Assembly (NCBI RefSeq): GCF_002162835.1 | Contig: NZ_MAAX01000076.1 | Span: forward strand, 1 to 47,730 | Length of the DNA stretch: 47,730 bases | Direction: 5' to 3' | Source of the DNA: Nonlabens dokdonensis | GTDB taxonomy: Bacteria > Bacteroidota > Bacteroidia > Flavobacteriales > Flavobacteriaceae | Shown here: positions 3,448 to 21,116 of the stretch, in pieces | Layout: each line of letters begins with the position of its first letter | How positions within the stretch are numbered: position 1 is the stretch's first letter | Notes under the pieces: model-generated | What the model saw: only the letters and a program-made list of their open reading frames with translations | Database searches by the model: none | What the model was told of the DNA's origin: nothing | Position numbers and translations under genes: made by a program

Positions 3448-5211
3448 ATGTCTGAGACCTTGCTAGAAACCATACATAATCCTGATGATTTGAAACGCTT
3501 TCGCGAAAGCGAGCTAGAACAAATCGCTCAAGAATTAAGAGCTTTTATTATAGAAATAGTGGCTGCAAAAGAAGGCCATTTAGGTGCTAGTCTTGGTGTG
3601 GTAGAGCTAACGATTGCGTTACATTATGTATTTAATACGCCTTATGATCAATTGGTTTGGGATGTTGGGCATCAAGCTTATGGTCATAAGATACTTACCG
3701 GTAGGCGTGATGCTTTTCATACCAACCGTGATTTAGGTGGGATTTCTGGTTTTCCTAAGCGATCAGAAAGTGAGTACGATACTTTTGGAACTGGTCATAG
3801 TTCTACTTCTATAAGTGCTGCACTAGGAATGGCGATGGCAAGTGCTTTAAAAAAGGAGGACAGAAAACATATTGCCGTAGTAGGTGATGCAAGTATTGCC
3901 AGCGGTATGGCGTTTGAAGCATTGAATCACGCTGGTGTAAGCGGTGCAGATTTATTAGTAATTCTCAACGATAATGCGATAGGAATAGACCCAAGTGTAG
4001 GCGCTTTAAAATATTACCTCACTAAAACCAAATCTGGTAAGGAAACCGGCAACGACAATATTTTTGAATCGCTTAATTTTGATTATTCTGGCCCTATTGA
4101 TGGTCATGATTTACCTCTTTTATTGAGCGAACTTAAAAAACAAAAAGATTTAAAAGGACCAAGACTTTTACACGTAAGAACAGTAAAAGGAAAAGGCCTT
4201 AAACAAGCCGAGATCGATCAAGTGCGTTACCACGCCCCAGGAAAATTTGATAAAATTACAGGTGAGATTCCAGCGAGTGATAGTAGCAAGTTACCACCTA
4301 AATTTCAAGACATTTTCGGGCATACTATTGTAGAACTAGCTCAAGAAAACGAAAAAATCGTAGGGATTACTCCAGCGATGCCTACCGGTAGTTCTATGAA
4401 AATAATGATGGAGGCGTTCCCTTATCGTGCTTTTGACGTAGGGATTGCAGAGCAACATGCGGTAACGCTTGCCGCAGGAATGGCAACTCAAGGATTAGTG
4501 CCTTTTTGTAATGTGTATTCTACTTTTTTACAACGGGCTTATGATCAAATTATTCATGATGTGGCATTGCAACAATTGCCTGTAATATTTTGTCTTGATC
4601 GTGCTGGTCTAGTAGGTAAAGATGGCGCTACACATCATGGGGTTTTTGATTTGGCTTATTTGAATTGTATTCCAGATATGATCATTGCTGCACCAATGGA
4701 TGCTATAGAAATGAGGAATATGATGTTTACCGCTTCACAAGGATTAGAATTGCCTATGGCGATTAGGTATCCGCGAGGTCGTGGTAAAATCGTGCAATGG
4801 AAACAGCCTTTTAAACAGGTAGAAATAGGTTCTTCTAGATGGTTAAAAAAGGGTAAAAATATAGCAATCGTGAGCATAGGCCCGATAGGGACAATGATTA
4901 AGGAATTGCTGGATCAAGAGAATCTTAACTGCACTCATATAGATATGCGTTTTTTAAAACCTATCGATGATAAGGCTTTGGAAGACTTATTTGACACGCA
5001 TAAGTATATCATTACCATCGAGGATGGAACTGTGGTAGGAGGATTAGGAAGTGCTGTTTGTGATCTCGCTTTCGCGAAAGCGTACCAAGGAAAAATACAT
5101 AAACTAGGTATTCCTGATGAGTTTATGGAACATGGTCCTACTGCAGATTTGCATAAAATCGCTGGTATAGATTGCTCTAGTACGCTGGAACTAATTAAAA
5201 GATTAAAGTAG
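3448..5211 (+). CDS. dxs: 1-deoxy-D-xylulose-5-phosphate synthase
   Basis: A 587-residue thiamine-diphosphate enzyme that condenses pyruvate and glyceraldehyde 3-phosphate, the first step of the MEP isoprenoid pathway and a source for thiamine and pyridoxal. Seen: AAKEGHLGASLGVVELTIAL and VWDVGHQAYGHKILTGR near the N-terminus, the ThDP/Mg2+ motif GDASIASGMAFEALNHAG...NDNAIGI, the transketolase pyrimidine domain with AEQHAVTLAAGMA, and the C-terminal domain TIEDGTVVGGLGSAV. Two copies of the iterated palindrome lie inside it in two different frames (RFRES near residue 17, AFAKA near residue 541). By comparison with the remembered E. coli protein, neither changes alignment length. The stop codon directly abuts the stop of the convergent BNR-repeat gene. 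Confidence 0.97.
   Translation: MSETLLETIHNPDDLKRFRESELEQIAQELRAFIIEIVAAKEGHLGASLGVVELTIALHYVFNTPYDQLVWDVGHQAYGHKILTGRRDAFHTNRDLGGISGFPKRSESEYDTFGTGHSSTSISAALGMAMASALKKEDRKHIAVVGDASIASGMAFEALNHAGVSGADLLVILNDNAIGIDPSVGALKYYLTKTKSGKETGNDNIFESLNFDYSGPIDGHDLPLLLSELKKQKDLKGPRLLHVRTVKGKGLKQAEIDQVRYHAPGKFDKITGEIPASDSSKLPPKFQDIFGHTIVELAQENEKIVGITPAMPTGSSMKIMMEAFPYRAFDVGIAEQHAVTLAAGMATQGLVPFCNVYSTFLQRAYDQIIHDVALQQLPVIFCLDRAGLVGKDGATHHGVFDLAYLNCIPDMIIAAPMDAIEMRNMMFTASQGLELPMAIRYPRGRGKIVQWKQPFKQVEIGSSRWLKKGKNIAIVSIGPIGTMIKELLDQENLNCTHIDMRFLKPIDDKALEDLFDTHKYIITIEDGTVVGGLGSAVCDLAFAKAYQGKIHKLGIPDEFMEHGPTADLHKIAGIDCSSTLELIKRLK
3496..3511. repeat. Iterated palindrome, copy 2 (in dxs, frame RFRES)
   Basis: CGCTTTCGCGAAAGCG, perfect 16-bp palindrome, read as Arg-Phe-Arg-Glu-Ser in dxs. 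Confidence 0.95.
5067..5082. repeat. Iterated palindrome, copy 3 (in dxs, frame AFAKA)
   Basis: CGCTTTCGCGAAAGCG, perfect 16-bp palindrome, read as Ala-Phe-Ala-Lys-Ala in dxs, 1.57 kb from copy 2. Confidence 0.95.
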
Positions 5212-16204: not shown

Positions 16205-17833
16205 TTAAGCAACTACAACTAATTTTTTAGTAGGTTTTACCGTTGTTTTTAATTCAAACTGATTTGAAGTGTTTTTCTCACCACCAGCTTTTAAGGCTTT
16301 TTCACCAGCAAAGAATGATTTATGATCGTCTCCTAAATCAGATCCAGCCATACGCTGATGCTTAACACAAGAAACGCTTTTTCTGATTTCTTGACGTTGT
16401 ACTCCTTTCACATAGGCTAACATTCCAGATTCACCGAAATAGCCCTCGGTTAAGTCATTCATGTTCAGTGCTGTAGTGTGATAAGTAGGTAACGTGATTA
16501 AATGGTGAAATATTCCTGCCTCACGTGCGCTATCCATTTGAAAAGTTCTTATACGTTCATCTGCTATTTTACATAAGGTTGTACCATCGTACAGAGCATT
16601 CATCAAGTCTGCAGGATCATAGAGACTCACATCTTGATCGCTTGCTAGCATTTCTTGGTAAGCTTGCTTACGGAAATTAAGTGTCCAGTTAAATGATGGA
16701 GAATTATTATATACAAGCTTTGCATTAGGGACTACTTTCTTAATGCGATTAACCATGTGTGCTATTTGTTTTACATCTGGAGTAGGTGTCTCAATCCATA
16801 ACAAATCAGCACCGTTTTGTAAACTGGTGATACAGTCTAGAACTACTCTATCAATGTTGGAATTTTTCTTGAATCTATAAAGACCATTAGGTAGTCGGAT
16901 AGGTCTTACTAATTTCCCATTTCTTTTTAACAAAATGTCGTCTTCGCGTACGTCTTCAATGGCAATTTCTTCTGCATCAACAAAAGCTAAATATTGAGAA
17001 GCCAGATCTCCAGGCTCTTGTGATACAGGAAGCTTTTGTGTTAATCCAGCACCTTCACTATCCGTACGAGCAACGATAACACCATTATCTACACCTAATT
17101 CTAAAAAGGCATAACGAATGGCATTAATTTTTGCAATAAAGTCTTCGTGCGGTACGGTAACTTTACCATCTTGATGGCCACATTGCTTTGCATCGCTTAC
17201 TTGATTTTCTATCTGGATGGCACAAGCTCCTGCTTGTATCATTTTTTTTGCTAATAAATAAGTAGCCTCTTCATTTCCAAAACCAGCATCAATATCTGCT
17301 ATTATAGGTACAACATGTGTTTCAAAATTATCTATTTGCGATTGCACATCTTCACCATTTTCAAGACGTCTAAATAGGTCATTTAACTCAATTGCATCTG
17401 CCTGTCGTAGAAAGTCATAAATTTCAACAATTAAGTTTGCTACAGCTGTTTTTTCATGCATAGACTGATCAGGTAATGGACCAAACTCAGAACGTAATGC
17501 AGCTACCATCCATCCAGAAAGGTAAAGGTATTTTTTGCTCGTAGTACCGTGATGCTTCTTTACAGAAATCATTTTTTGTTGCGCTACAAAACCGTGCCAG
17601 CAACCCAAAGATTGTGTGTAATTAGAAGCGTCTGCATCATAAGCAGCCATATCTTCACGCATGATTCCAGCGGTATATTTTGCAATTTCAAGTCCCGTTT
17701 TAAAACGATTTTGTGCCATCATGCGCGCAGCATTTTGTGGGTTGATAGCGTTCCAGGTCGTACCATATTTTTCTTTTAGGTCTTTTACCGTTTGTAGTGC
17801 TGAATAGTAGTTAGATTGTGTTATAGTTTCCAT
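16205..17833 (-). CDS. aceA: Isocitrate lyase
   Basis: A 542-residue isocitrate lyase, splitting isocitrate to glyoxylate and succinate, the first glyoxylate-shunt step, needed for growth on acetate or fatty acids. The catalytic segment is K216-Q-C218-G-H (QVSDAKQCGHQDGKVTVPHE), the variant of the KKCGH signature used by the longer isocitrate lyase subfamily of about 530 residues (Pseudomonas aeruginosa type). Other family marks: PIIADIDAGFGN, VIVARTDSEGAG, ADLLWIETPTP, YNNSPSFNW and the C-terminal KHQRMAGSDLGDDH. It lies 76 bases downstream of aceB on the same strand, so the pair is very probably one operon. Confidence 0.96.
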   Translation of the reverse strand: METITQSNYYSALQTVKDLKEKYGTTWNAINPQNAARMMAQNRFKTGLEIAKYTAGIMREDMAAYDADASNYTQSLGCWHGFVAQQKMISVKKHHGTTSKKYLYLSGWMVAALRSEFGPLPDQSMHEKTAVANLIVEIYDFLRQADAIELNDLFRRLENGEDVQSQIDNFETHVVPIIADIDAGFGNEEATYLLAKKMIQAGACAIQIENQVSDAKQCGHQDGKVTVPHEDFIAKINAIRYAFLELGVDNGVIVARTDSEGAGLTQKLPVSQEPGDLASQYLAFVDAEEIAIEDVREDDILLKRNGKLVRPIRLPNGLYRFKKNSNIDRVVLDCITSLQNGADLLWIETPTPDVKQIAHMVNRIKKVVPNAKLVYNNSPSFNWTLNFRKQAYQEMLASDQDVSLYDPADLMNALYDGTTLCKIADERIRTFQMDSAREAGIFHHLITLPTYHTTALNMNDLTEGYFGESGMLAYVKGVQRQEIRKSVSCVKHQRMAGSDLGDDHKSFFAGEKALKAGGEKNTSNQFELKTTVKPTKKLVVVA

Positions 17834-17909: not shown

Positions 17910-19508
17910 TTAAATGTATTGGTATGCAGGTAAGGTTAAGAACTCTTCAAATTTGTCTTCTTTGATAAGCTGATAAAACAAATCAAATGCTAGCTTAAAT
18001 TTTGTTTTAGGAATATTTACCTCATCCACCTCAAGTATGATTTTTTCTATTTCTTCATCAAATATGGTATCGAATAATTCATTGTTAAAAATGCGCCCAT
18101 CTTCAAGCACCGCTTTGTTTTTAAGCCATTGCCATACTTGTGTTCTTGAAATCTCGGCTGTGGCTGCATCTTCCATTAAATCGTATAAAGCAACAGCGCC
18201 ATAACCACGTAGCCAGGCTTCTAGGTAAAGAATCCCTACGTTAATATTTTTACGCACACCAGCTTCTGTGATGGTACCTTTAGGTAGCTCTATTAAGTCT
18301 TTTTCGGTAACTACAAGATTTGTTAGTTTTTTATCAATTTGATTTGGACCAGACATATGCTTGTTAAATTCGCTCATAGCAACATCAACTAAGGCTGGAT
18401 GCGCCACCCAAGTACCGTCATGTCCATTTTTCACTTCACGTTCCTTATCTAGACGTACCTTTTCTAGTGCAGTTTCATTTGCCATACGATTATTTTTTAT
18501 GGGAATTTGAGCTGCCATACCACCCATAGCGTGAATTCCACGTTTGTGGCATCGCTGTATAACTAAACGAGAGTAAGCAGCCATAAAAGGAGTCGTCATG
18601 GACACCTGATCACGATTAGGAACTATAAAATTAGCATGGTTACTGAATTTTTTGATGTAAGAAAAAATGTAATCCCAGCGACCACAATTAAGACCTACAA
18701 TATGATCTTTCAATTCGTAGATGATCTCATCCAGTTGAAAGCTTGCCGTTATTGTTTCTACTAGTACTGTTGCTTTAAATGTACCTACAGGAACATCTAG
18801 ATACTCTTGAGAAAACTTAAATACATCGTTCCACCATCTTGCCTCGAGATAATGTTCTAATTTAGGTAAGTAGAAGTACGGTGCCGTATTCGAATCTAGT
18901 AAAACACGAGTATTATGAAACACGTATAATCCAAAGTCAAGTAAACTACCTGAAATAGGTTCCCCATTAATCATAATATGACGTTCCTCTAAATGTAAGC
19001 CGCGAGGACGCACTAGTAATACAGCAGTGTTAGCATTAAGTTTATAGTGTTTATTTTTTAATTTGTTAAACAATGAAATGGTGCCAAGATTTGCATCCCT
19101 TAAATTTTGCTGGCCTTCCATGATGTTTTTCCAAGTAGGAGCTGTGCTGTCTTCAAAGTCTGCCATAAAGGTTTTTGCTCCAGAATTAAGAGCGTTAATA
19201 ACCATTTTTCTATCTACAGGACCTGTGATTTCTACACGGCGGTCTTGTAGATCTTGCGGAATTGATCCCGCTACCCAATCACTATCTCTTATGGATGTAG
19301 TTTCTTTAGGAAACTCAGGAAAGTTGCCTTGATCAAAAATTACTTGTTGTTCTTGTCTTTTTTCAAGCAATGCAACTCGCGCATCATTAAACTTACCATG
19401 CAATGCAAGTAGAAATGTTTTTGCGTCCTCAGTTAAAATGTCTTTGTATTCCTGAGTTACATCTTCAGAATACTCTAATTTTTTTTGAATAATAGTGTTG
19501 ATTTCCAT
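17910..19508 (-). CDS. aceB: Malate synthase A
   Basis: A 532-residue malate synthase of the A (aceB) type, joining glyoxylate and acetyl-CoA to malate. Seen: GPVDRKMVINALNSGAKTFMADFEDSTAPTW near the N-terminus, VRPRGLHLEERH with the catalytic region, LVETITASFQLDEIIYELKDHIVGLNCGRWDYIFSYIKKF with the Mg2+-binding acidic residues, HAMGGMAAQIPIKN and NGHDGTWVAHPALV. I start it at the ATG at 19508; the frame extends 12 codons to a TTG, but that extension is not family-like. It is the first gene of the aceB-aceA unit and is divergent from a ScfR/RamB-like regulator, with a 14-bp palindrome between them. Confidence 0.96.
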   Translation of the reverse strand: MEINTIIQKKLEYSEDVTQEYKDILTEDAKTFLLALHGKFNDARVALLEKRQEQQVIFDQGNFPEFPKETTSIRDSDWVAGSIPQDLQDRRVEITGPVDRKMVINALNSGAKTFMADFEDSTAPTWKNIMEGQQNLRDANLGTISLFNKLKNKHYKLNANTAVLLVRPRGLHLEERHIMINGEPISGSLLDFGLYVFHNTRVLLDSNTAPYFYLPKLEHYLEARWWNDVFKFSQEYLDVPVGTFKATVLVETITASFQLDEIIYELKDHIVGLNCGRWDYIFSYIKKFSNHANFIVPNRDQVSMTTPFMAAYSRLVIQRCHKRGIHAMGGMAAQIPIKNNRMANETALEKVRLDKEREVKNGHDGTWVAHPALVDVAMSEFNKHMSGPNQIDKKLTNLVVTEKDLIELPKGTITEAGVRKNINVGILYLEAWLRGYGAVALYDLMEDAATAEISRTQVWQWLKNKAVLEDGRIFNNELFDTIFDEEIEKIILEVDEVNIPKTKFKLAFDLFYQLIKEDKFEEFLTLPAYQYI

Positions 19509-19560
19509 GATCTTATCTTTTTGTACGAGACAATGATAAAACAAAAAACATTATTAAACA

Positions 19561-19574
19561 AGCGAACGTTCGCT
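19561..19574. promoter_or_regulatory. Candidate operator, perfect 14-bp palindrome
   Basis: AGCGAACGTTCGCT, different from the iterated palindrome. It sits between aceB (start 19508, minus) and the regulator (start 19632, plus), 52 bases from aceB and just upstream of the regulator's promoter. It is a good candidate binding site for that regulator, controlling aceBA and itself; this is inferred from position and symmetry. Confidence 0.6.
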
Positions 19575-19592
19575 ATTTATGTAAAATAGATA

Positions 19593-19625
19593 TTTGAAAT
19601 TCATACGCAAATTGTGTTATATTTG
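19593..19625 (+). promoter_or_regulatory. Promoter of the ScfR-like regulator
   Basis: TTTG at 19593-19596 and TATATTTG at 19618-19625, spacing 21 bases, matching the Bacteroidota -33/-7 pattern. Only 6 bases separate the -7 box from the ATG at 19632, so the message would be leaderless or nearly so. Confidence 0.65.
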
Positions 19626-19631
19626 ATTATT

Positions 19632-21116
19632 ATGGTAGTAGAAGAAGATTATATAAAGCTCATTTTTGGTCTTAAACTCAAGCAAATACGTACGGATAAG
19701 GATTTGTCTCTTTTTGGGCTTTCAAAGCTTACTGGCCTTTCTAAATCATATCTCAACGAGATTGAAAAAGGTAAAAAATATCCTAAGCCAGATAAAATTG
19801 CCATTTTATCAGAAAAGTTAGAAACTCCTTATGACCAGATCGTATCACTAAAACTGGATAAGAATCTTGCTCCTATAGGTGAGTTGTTGCGCTCTAAAGT
19901 TTTTAAAGAAATCCCTCTTGAGCTTTTTGGGATTAAAGAAAGCCAGTTAATTGACATGGTTTCCAACGCGCCTGCAAAAGTGAACGCATTTATAAGTACC
20001 ATTATTGAGATAGCTCAAAATTACAATTTTAGCAAGGAGAATTTCCATCTTGCTGCGGTACGCTCCTTTCAGCAAGCAAATAATAATTATTTTGAAAATT
20101 TGGAAGTTGATGTTCTTGCTTTCGCGAAAGCGTACCAAATCAATTTATCTCTACCGATTAAATCCAAAGAATTAGAAGAAATATTAATTGAAGAATACGG
20201 CTATACAATCAACAATCAAGAACTAGACACTCACGATGAGCTGGATAATTTAAGGTCTGTTTTTATACCAAAAAATAAGATATTACTTGTTGCAAATCGC
20301 ATAGATGACGCACAACGAGCTTTTATTTATGCTAAAGAAATTGCTTATAATTACCTGAAAATTGAAGAGCGGCTTAATACGTTTCCCTGGATTAAGTTTG
20401 AAAAATTTGATCAAGTAATAAATAATTTTTACGCTTCTTATTTTGCTGGAGCACTAATTATTTCTAGGAAGAAGATCACCGAACAACTGTCCCAGTTATT
20501 TGCAAAGGAGAAGTTTGATAAAGACTTTTTTTTGAATATGATTTCCTCTTATAATGCATCCCCAGAATCTTTTTACCAGCGGCTTACAAATGTACTACCA
20601 AAGGATTTTACGATCCAAAATCTATTTTTCTTACGTTTCACACATCGCTTGGGCTCTAAACAGTTTTATCTTAAAAAAGAATTGCACCTCGCGCACCAGC
20701 AGTCTCCACGTGCGAATGAGCTCAACGCACATTATTGCCGTAGATGGATTTCTTTAAAGGTATTAAATGTTATAAGTGAAGGTAAAATGGATCATGTCTT
20801 TGATTTACAAATCTCTAATTTTACGGATGATGATCAGCAGTATCTGGTTTTATCATCTGCAACTCGAGACCCTTTTAGAAGCAATCACTATCGTAGTATC
20901 GCAATAGGTATATTGATAAATCGTCAACTTAAAAATAAAGTTCAATTCTTACAAGACGATGCTATTAAAACGATCGATGTAGGCGTTACTTGTGAGCGAT
21001 GTGCCATTAAAAATTGTGAAGTAAGACAAGTGCCTGCGCATACTTTAAATAGAGAAATAAAAAACTTAAAAACAGAGTCTGTAGTTAAGGATATAGTAGC
21101 CAAGTTTTCCAGCTAA
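19632..21116 (+). CDS. ScfR/RamB-like acetate/short-chain-fatty-acid metabolism regulator
   Basis: A 494-residue XRE-family regulator. HTH at about 15-70 (LKLKQIRTDKDLSLFGLSKLTGLSKSYLNEIEKG). The middle has an ImmA/IrrE-like fold in which the HExxH metal site is degenerate (FIYA-K235-E-I-A-Y239 in its place, followed by FYASYFAGALIISRK), as in ScfR/RamB regulators. The C-terminal domain ends with the family Cys motif C454-ER-C457-AIKN-C462-EVRQ, comparable to CRxCER.dC..RA.P of RamB. RamB-type proteins control aceA/aceB and related acetate or propionate genes in actinobacteria; the divergent placement from aceBA fits exactly. The ATG at 19632 is preferred over an upstream TTG in frame. A palindrome copy encodes AFAKA at 163-167. 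It ends before a strong bidirectional terminator. Confidence 0.85.
   Translation: MVVEEDYIKLIFGLKLKQIRTDKDLSLFGLSKLTGLSKSYLNEIEKGKKYPKPDKIAILSEKLETPYDQIVSLKLDKNLAPIGELLRSKVFKEIPLELFGIKESQLIDMVSNAPAKVNAFISTIIEIAQNYNFSKENFHLAAVRSFQQANNNYFENLEVDVLAFAKAYQINLSLPIKSKELEEILIEEYGYTINNQELDTHDELDNLRSVFIPKNKILLVANRIDDAQRAFIYAKEIAYNYLKIEERLNTFPWIKFEKFDQVINNFYASYFAGALIISRKKITEQLSQLFAKEKFDKDFFLNMISSYNASPESFYQRLTNVLPKDFTIQNLFFLRFTHRLGSKQFYLKKELHLAHQQSPRANELNAHYCRRWISLKVLNVISEGKMDHVFDLQISNFTDDDQQYLVLSSATRDPFRSNHYRSIAIGILINRQLKNKVQFLQDDAIKTIDVGVTCERCAIKNCEVRQVPAHTLNREIKNLKTESVVKDIVAKFSS
20118..20131. repeat. Iterated palindrome, copy 7 (in regulator gene, frame AFAKA)
   Basis: GCTTTCGCGAAAGC, perfect core. 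The following bases (GTACCAA) are the same as after copy 3 in dxs, so both proteins carry LAFAKAYQ. Confidence 0.95.

Follow-up and report, generated by a model that had tools for sequence, protein, structure and literature searches.

The 123-bp spacer between two divergent genes of Nonlabens dokdonensis, aceB and the gene for an ScfR-type regulator, carries a perfect 14-bp palindrome, AGCGAACGTTCGCT (positions 19561..19574, both strands; general form AGCGAA-NN-TTCGCT), predicted from its sequence and conservation to be an operator core. Judging from its distribution, this palindrome is almost certainly the docking site of the neighbouring regulator, conserved almost without change throughout the flavobacterial order and, more loosely, over much of the phylum. 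Positions are those of the window, i.e. the whole 47,730-nt stretch of contig NZ_MAAX01000076.1 (assembly GCF_002162835.1) that was analysed. We propose that the regulator binds the palindrome, activates aceBA and represses itself, and put the probability of this reading as a whole at about three in four. The protein family is already known; what is new is the operator, with its half-site array and its distribution among Bacteroidota. Among the best-ranked matches in the open-access literature, we found no description of such a regulator or site in Bacteroidota.

The malate synthase A gene aceB (17910..19508, minus strand) matches TIGR01344 with 772.8 bits (cut-off 594.5). Downstream of it, after a gap of 76 bp, lies aceA, which encodes a PRK06498-type isocitrate lyase (16205..17833, minus strand; NF005074, 980 bits, cut-off 446), and the two genes probably form one operon. 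The regulator (494 amino acids; 19632..21116, plus strand) was recognized from domain matches, fold prediction and the conservation of its cysteines. Its start in the open reading frame listing is GTG 19614; the alternative ATG at 19632 was chosen because it matches the starts in relatives. An earlier, sequence-only reading of this DNA had described the regulator as divergent from aceB-aceA and the palindrome as a likely operator within the spacer. The gene arrangement (minus-strand aceB with its start at 19508, plus-strand regulator with its start at 19632) and the palindrome were confirmed, and the operator assignment appears well founded, the site being strikingly conserved and coupled to the regulator.

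In a first set of 59 genomes, N. dokdonensis included, malate synthase A was found in 8, all of which also encode the regulator; the 14-mer is exact or has one mismatch in 7 of them, and the most distant carries AGCGAATTTTCGCT. A draw of 395 genomes from the order, with the regulator called by profile A1 at E<=1e-20, gave the regulator in 91 genomes and malate synthase A in the identical 91, with zero discordant genomes (in this and all other genome counts related genomes were counted individually, ignoring kinship). All 90 pairs located on the same contig are divergent. The exact 14-mer occurs in 75 of the 395 genomes, one copy apiece, and the reversed control pattern in 2. Among the regulator genomes, 74 of 91 have the exact 14-mer beside aceB, 73 of them within the spacer; in the other one, G117 (L178, L179), the 14-mer lies with aceB in mid-contig and the regulator is on a different contig; here operator and regulator may have become separated naturally. 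In the remaining 17, the sequence ahead of the regulator contains a near form of the 14-mer, with one mismatch in 11 genomes, two in 4 and three in 2. Only one of the 304 regulator-less genomes (G414) has the exact 14-mer, inside a coding frame that, read by eye, appears to be uvrB. Two regulator genomes have unusual loci: in G306 the regulator and aceB matches are 1,124 nt apart, with the 14-mer on the aceB side, and in G017 malate synthase is broken into two frames.

The named loci (the best 80 of 527 in a profile search, one genome per species) agree with this picture and with the expectation of the sequence-only reading that the spacer sequence would be kept where relatives share the gene order. 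The exact 14-mer is present in 79 of the 80, aceB is divergent in 78 (L096 is cut by a contig end and L057 has no aceB), and 72 show the order aceA-aceB-regulator. The single exception to the exact 14-mer, L057 of Xanthomarina spongicola, has an intact orphan regulator, and no malate synthase A turned up in its genome. At positions 4466-4501 of this locus an altered palindrome, AACGAACGTTCGCA, lies 35 nt from the regulator start, near its own -7 element, and the arrangement looks like the result of a deletion between TTCGC repeats that took out the array. Genome G034, again with no malate synthase A found, retains a truncated regulator and a C-terminal remnant of aceA (L009 1489-2601). In these two genomes, as far as the sequences tell, loss of the target went along with a change or loss of the operator. 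In the genome of Maribacter litoralis (L079, L110), malate synthase A and the regulator locus both occur twice, and each regulator locus has an exact palindrome of its own.

This conservation is what gives the palindrome its significance. Taken by itself the palindrome is weak evidence, as a perfect 14-bp palindrome arose in 6,642 of 200,000 shuffles of the spacer (3.3%) and is thus only modestly unlikely. That frequency, together with the presence in the window of an unrelated iterated palindrome, could be cited in favour of a chance or structural element, such as a hairpin or repeat, that serves no regulator. We consider this practically negligible in view of the exact preservation of the site in 79 of 80 loci and its fixed distance to the aceB -7 element in 76 of 80.

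Within the N. dokdonensis genome the site is solitary. Its 12-mer core GCGAACGTTCGC has a single occurrence at up to one mismatch, and AGCGAANNTTCGCT, at the same tolerance, is found in two places, the second of which (L261) is within a coding frame; at two mismatches there are 24 matches, below the reversed control (66). Because the assembly (214 contigs) is 93% complete, a further site could have been missed. A global RamB-like regulon was rejected, given one intergenic site and a two-mismatch count under the reversed control, and the search for the palindrome at other acetate or propionate genes that had been proposed from the sequence recovered this one site only. A single site suggests that the regulator is a local switch. 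A literature string search with three forms of the 14-mer gave no match, and the matches of the 12-mer GCGAACGTTCGC, going by their excerpts, concern only CpG oligonucleotides, immunity or vaccines.

The regulator consists of an XRE-type helix-turn-helix (HTH) domain (residues ~12-72), an IrrE/GAF-like core (~137-446) without the HExxH motif, and a C-terminal C-X2-C-X4-C motif (residues 454-462) that is complemented by Cys369, so that all three hallmarks named in the sequence-only reading (HTH, IrrE-like core without HExxH and C-terminal Cys motif) are present. HTH_3 scored 32.9 bits (cut-off 23). At E<=0.001, an HTH was found in all 41 members of set A2, Peptidase_M78 in 33 (the N. dokdonensis protein itself being unmatched) and the Pfam family ScfRs (PF09856) in 23. 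Cysteines 369, 454, 457 and 462 are present in 81 of 81 near rows; Cys369 occurs in all 48 far rows, the other three in 47 of them. These cysteines match, in order and spacing, the set of Mycobacterium tuberculosis PrpR (MtPrpR; Cys363 and 447-C-X2-C-X4-C-455), which holds a [4Fe4S] cluster (PMC6765138), suggesting that the N. dokdonensis protein may also carry an iron-sulfur (Fe-S) cluster. An AlphaFold2 model built from 41 sequences had a mean predicted local distance difference test score (pLDDT) of 78.4 and a predicted template modelling score (pTM) of 0.67. Foldseek returned MtPrpR chains as its first six matches (best E 1.8e-11), followed by IrrE/PprI, and VIA-align superimposed the model on MtPrpR (PDB 6CYY) with Z 24.4, a root-mean-square deviation of 3.9 and 17% identity over 299 aligned residues; next came IrrE/PprI at Z 13.3-14.2 and CapP at 13-14. 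Sequence profiles scarcely reach MtPrpR (E 0.03-0.06 and 0.08-0.2). Sequence and model thus support membership in the ScfR family, and of the original designation, ScfR/RamB, the first half stands. RamB was rejected as a name, since the protein scored 50 bits against NF038139, for which the cut-off is 700. A RamB-type site, TTTGCAAA, is absent from the N. dokdonensis spacer, the nearest sequence being TACGCAAA.

When the spacers are anchored on the palindrome, a second conserved block, CAATATTA, appears at a fixed position; on the aceB strand it reads TAATATTG, a -7 element. In 76 of 80 spacers (N. dokdonensis and 79 others) this element begins at a distance of exactly 22 nt from the palindrome. 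The predicted N. dokdonensis element, TATCATTG (19531..19538, minus strand), has the same 22-nt distance and is off the consensus TAnnTTTG. With the numbering used for Flavobacterium johnsoniae, in which the -7 element runs from T-12 to G-5 and the -33 motif is weak according to the relevant passages (PMC6847099), the palindrome spans about -48 to -35 of aceB, with its centre at about -41.5. The predicted -7 element of the regulator, TATATTTG (19618..19625, plus strand; same numbering, PMC6847099), lies 43 nt away from the palindrome. The sequence-only reading was therefore right in placing the palindrome in the spacer but not in placing it next to the promoter of the regulator: judged by these predicted elements, it is tied to the aceB promoter. 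Transcription of the regulator is predicted to start at about 19630, some 2 nt ahead of the ATG, and its mRNA may therefore be leaderless or nearly so; short start-to-ATG distances for the regulator are also seen in many relatives.

From the palindrome toward the regulator, 66 of the 80 spacers contain further direct TTCGC half-sites. They are located 16-19 nt from the TTCGCT of the palindrome in 53 spacers and 32-37 nt from it in 63, with both present in 50, and each distance class is met in ~0.1% of shuffles. The last half-site lies exactly 14 nt ahead of the regulator TAnnTTTG element in 59 of the 62 spacers where that element was found, corresponding to about -26 to -19 of the regulator promoter. 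In many relatives this third half-site, or box 3, is TTCGCAAA, the reverse complement of TTTGCGAA. The N. dokdonensis box 3 is TACGCAAA (19604..19611, plus strand), 35 nt from the start of the TTCGCT of the palindrome and starting 14 nt ahead of the start of the regulator -7 element.

Outside the order the site appears to relax to AGCGAA-NN-TTCGCT. In a draw of 395 genomes from the phylum the regulator was found in 70, and 47 matched loci beyond the order were analysed (a 48th, L257, belongs to the order and has no site within 350 bp). Of the 47 loci, 32 have exact AGCGAANNTTCGCT in the 350 bp that precede the regulator; none of 9,600 shuffles does. In a fair share of these loci the divergent neighbour is something other than aceB: it is a member of the acyl-CoA (coenzyme A) ligase superfamily at L220, L226, L229 and L238 (four scanned out of seven alike loci, a name given at superfamily level only as the scores are below every NCBIfam cut-off shown), phosphoenolpyruvate (PEP) carboxykinase (pckA) at L224, where the 14-mer is exactly the flavobacterial one, canonical isocitrate lyase at L241 and adenylate kinase at L246 and L250. 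At L218, where the regulator is divergent from aconitase, there is no exact site. Since the site is present where the divergent gene is not aceB, it follows the regulator and not the aceB promoter alone. Across 188 genomes, the motif and its reversed control were counted 57 and 7 times, respectively, in the 38 with the regulator, versus 43 and 43 times in the 150 without it, i.e. not among the positives of the phylum draw; the corresponding Fisher value of 8.6e-12 is indicative only, as kinship was ignored. These data bear on the alternative that the palindrome serves some other regulator of aceB, for example one of the TetR type, whose operators are commonly perfect palindromes with a short centre, and that the ScfR-type gene is a mere neighbour. 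The presence of the site by the regulator beside acyl-CoA ligase, pckA, canonical isocitrate lyase and adenylate kinase genes, a motif frequency in regulator-less genomes no higher than that of the reversed control, and the single exact site per genome in the order make this alternative very improbable.

If the ScfR-type protein is indeed the cognate regulator, a dimer would bind AGCGAA-NN-TTCGCT via its HTH domains, and the ligand-loaded form, with acyl-CoA or CoA, would most likely recruit RNA polymerase to aceB-aceA; activation is suggested because the palindrome occupies a class II activator position beside an off-consensus -7 element. A tetramer or a second dimer might then extend over the direct half-sites, in steps of 17-18 bp, toward the regulator's own gene, where occupancy at about -26 to -19 would most likely repress it. 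By analogy to MtPrpR and Paracoccus RamB, the core may bind CoA or acyl-CoA and respond with a change of oligomer.

The sign of control could also be the opposite, with the regulator mainly repressing aceBA by blocking the -33 region while on the palindrome and leaving it upon acyl-CoA binding. The RamB proteins of Corynebacterium glutamicum and Mycobacterium tuberculosis are repressors, RamB is described as negatively autoregulating, and at aceB the palindrome directly adjoins the -33 region. A dual role as activator and repressor was concluded for Paracoccus RamB, which is also the closest functional parallel and is required for ms-icl expression, according to the corresponding passages (PMC10370305). 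The centre at ~-41.5, the fixed 22-nt distance and the off-consensus -7 element suit activation better, and we regard predominant repression of aceBA as rather unlikely.

Several observations nevertheless weigh against activation of aceBA combined with self-repression by the ScfR-type protein. Position is the only guide to the sign of control, and the centre of the palindrome is ~62 bp from the predicted start of the regulator, a distance from which activation would be possible too. No further exact TTCGC is found in 14 of the 80 spacers, and in that of N. dokdonensis box 2 is unrecognisable and box 3 has one mismatch. The match of the regulator to PF09856 (23.6 bits) is just under the cut-off of 24. 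Outside the order, 15 of the 47 regulator loci lack an exact site within 350 bp, and genomes G586, G460, G597, G647 and G513 carry the motif elsewhere and not exactly at the regulator.

Among the closest known systems, RamB of Paracoccus denitrificans is a class 2 ScfR protein that adjoins malate synthase and isocitrate lyase genes, a neighbourhood shared by the N. dokdonensis regulator; its site is upstream of the malate synthase gene, RamB is required for expression, CoA esters alter its oligomer and an Fe-S cluster has been reported (all from the pertinent passages of PMC10370305). It belongs, however, to another phylum, its sensing is linked to the ethylmalonyl-CoA pathway, and its site consists of two near-identical boxes with an 18-bp spacer; AGCGAA-NN-TTCGCT is absent from the 80-bp oligonucleotide printed for it (PMC10370305). 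MtPrpR (PDB 6CYY, 6CYJ, 6CZ6, 6D2S) shares the fold and the C-X2-C-X4-C motif with a fourth cysteine at nearly equal spacing (PMC6765138), and box 3 is similar to the two boxes of its footprint, TTTGCAAA and TTTGCgAA (PMC3420887). In contrast, it controls methylcitrate genes and icl1, only 1 bp separates its two boxes, and AGCGAA-NN-TTCGCT is not described for it in the excerpts of either paper (PMC3420887, PMC6765138). RamB of C. glutamicum (class 1) is likewise an ScfR protein of acetate metabolism, but has many targets with the site AA/GAACTTTGCAAA, as given in the passages on its regulon (PMC4448153), whereas N. dokdonensis has one site and its spacer lacks AA/GAACTTTGCAAA.

Beyond the flavobacterial order the regulon may be wider. 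The motif is present in 40 of the 46 genomes of the loci analysed there, as a single site in 22 of the 40 and with up to nine sites in the others. The extra sites examined, a set that left out at least G724:C47, G513:C93 and the second site of G544, comprise 40 regions, 6 with the site in a frame of >=90 codons and 34 intergenic. Targets related to acyl-CoA, acetyl-CoA or gluconeogenesis are found at 14 of the 34: FadE acyl-CoA dehydrogenases above the NCBIfam cut-off (L307, L308), other acyl-CoA dehydrogenases (L306, L336), FadB-like proteins (L302, L309), an enoyl-CoA hydratase (L304), an electron transfer flavoprotein (ETF)-domain protein (L305), PEP carboxykinase (L310 and, by its N-terminus only, L311), aconitase (L325, L332 and, by its N-terminus only, L328) and a MeaB/methylmalonyl-CoA-mutase-type protein (L337). 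The target at L310 and L311 is uncertain because the site is located between pckA and an oppositely transcribed second gene, which at L310 encodes a POT-type transporter. The other extra sites, among them those at genes for a DEAD helicase, two IlvD proteins, a nitronate monooxygenase, a LOG-type protein, an iron-sulfur protein and a biopterin hydroxylase, are unfitting or unexplained. In genomes G751 and G647, AGCGAAATTTCGCT lies 8 and 2 nt, respectively, ahead of an ilvD-type dihydroxy-acid dehydratase gene (L312, L314, around base 2501), which fits no obvious acyl-CoA target.

The centre of the site covaries with residue 38 of the HTH domain. A CG centre accompanies Lys38 in 123 of 124 proteins and another centre accompanies a different residue in 42 of 43, when the forms AGCGAACGTACGCT are taken as CG and 13 regulator places with no operator match are left out. 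The correlation is not strict (the exceptions are L175 and L224) and, as Lys is for the most part a marker of one clade, it serves only as a lead.

These patterns would fit a phylum-wide system of acyl-CoA control, in which ScfR-type proteins of Bacteroidota read AGCGAA-NN-TTCGCT and their targets, depending on the lineage, are the glyoxylate shunt, fatty-acid activation, beta-oxidation (FadE, FadB, enoyl-CoA hydratase, ETF), aconitase and PEP carboxykinase. Within the flavobacterial order, shrinkage of this regulon would have left a single operator; its half-site array would set aceBA as well as the dose of the regulator itself, and residue 38 (Lys versus Val/Ile/Ala) would set the central dinucleotide (CG versus the rest). 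We see the arguments for and against this broader proposal as evenly balanced.

The site, its spacing rules and the predicted targets make the control of acetate and fatty-acid assimilation in Bacteroidota directly testable, and the single-site genomes offer a clean setting for the co-evolution of a metabolic regulator and its one operator. Work on Dokdonia has reportedly linked the glyoxylate shunt to proteorhodopsin-based, light-driven growth of marine flavobacteria, for which a regulator of the shunt would be a missing piece.

The unrelated iterated palindrome mentioned above, GCTTTCGCGAAAGC, has 11 exact copies in the window (positions 659, 3497, 5068, 8963, 13610, 15985, 20118, 27393, 32618, 39211 and 45133), one of them inside the regulator gene, and none in 100 shuffles. 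The string had no match in the literature searched. It is also found in the same-genus loci L004 and L007 and the Dokdonia loci L097 and L103, is absent from the other 78 named loci and, by this distribution, is a genus-level highly iterated palindrome.

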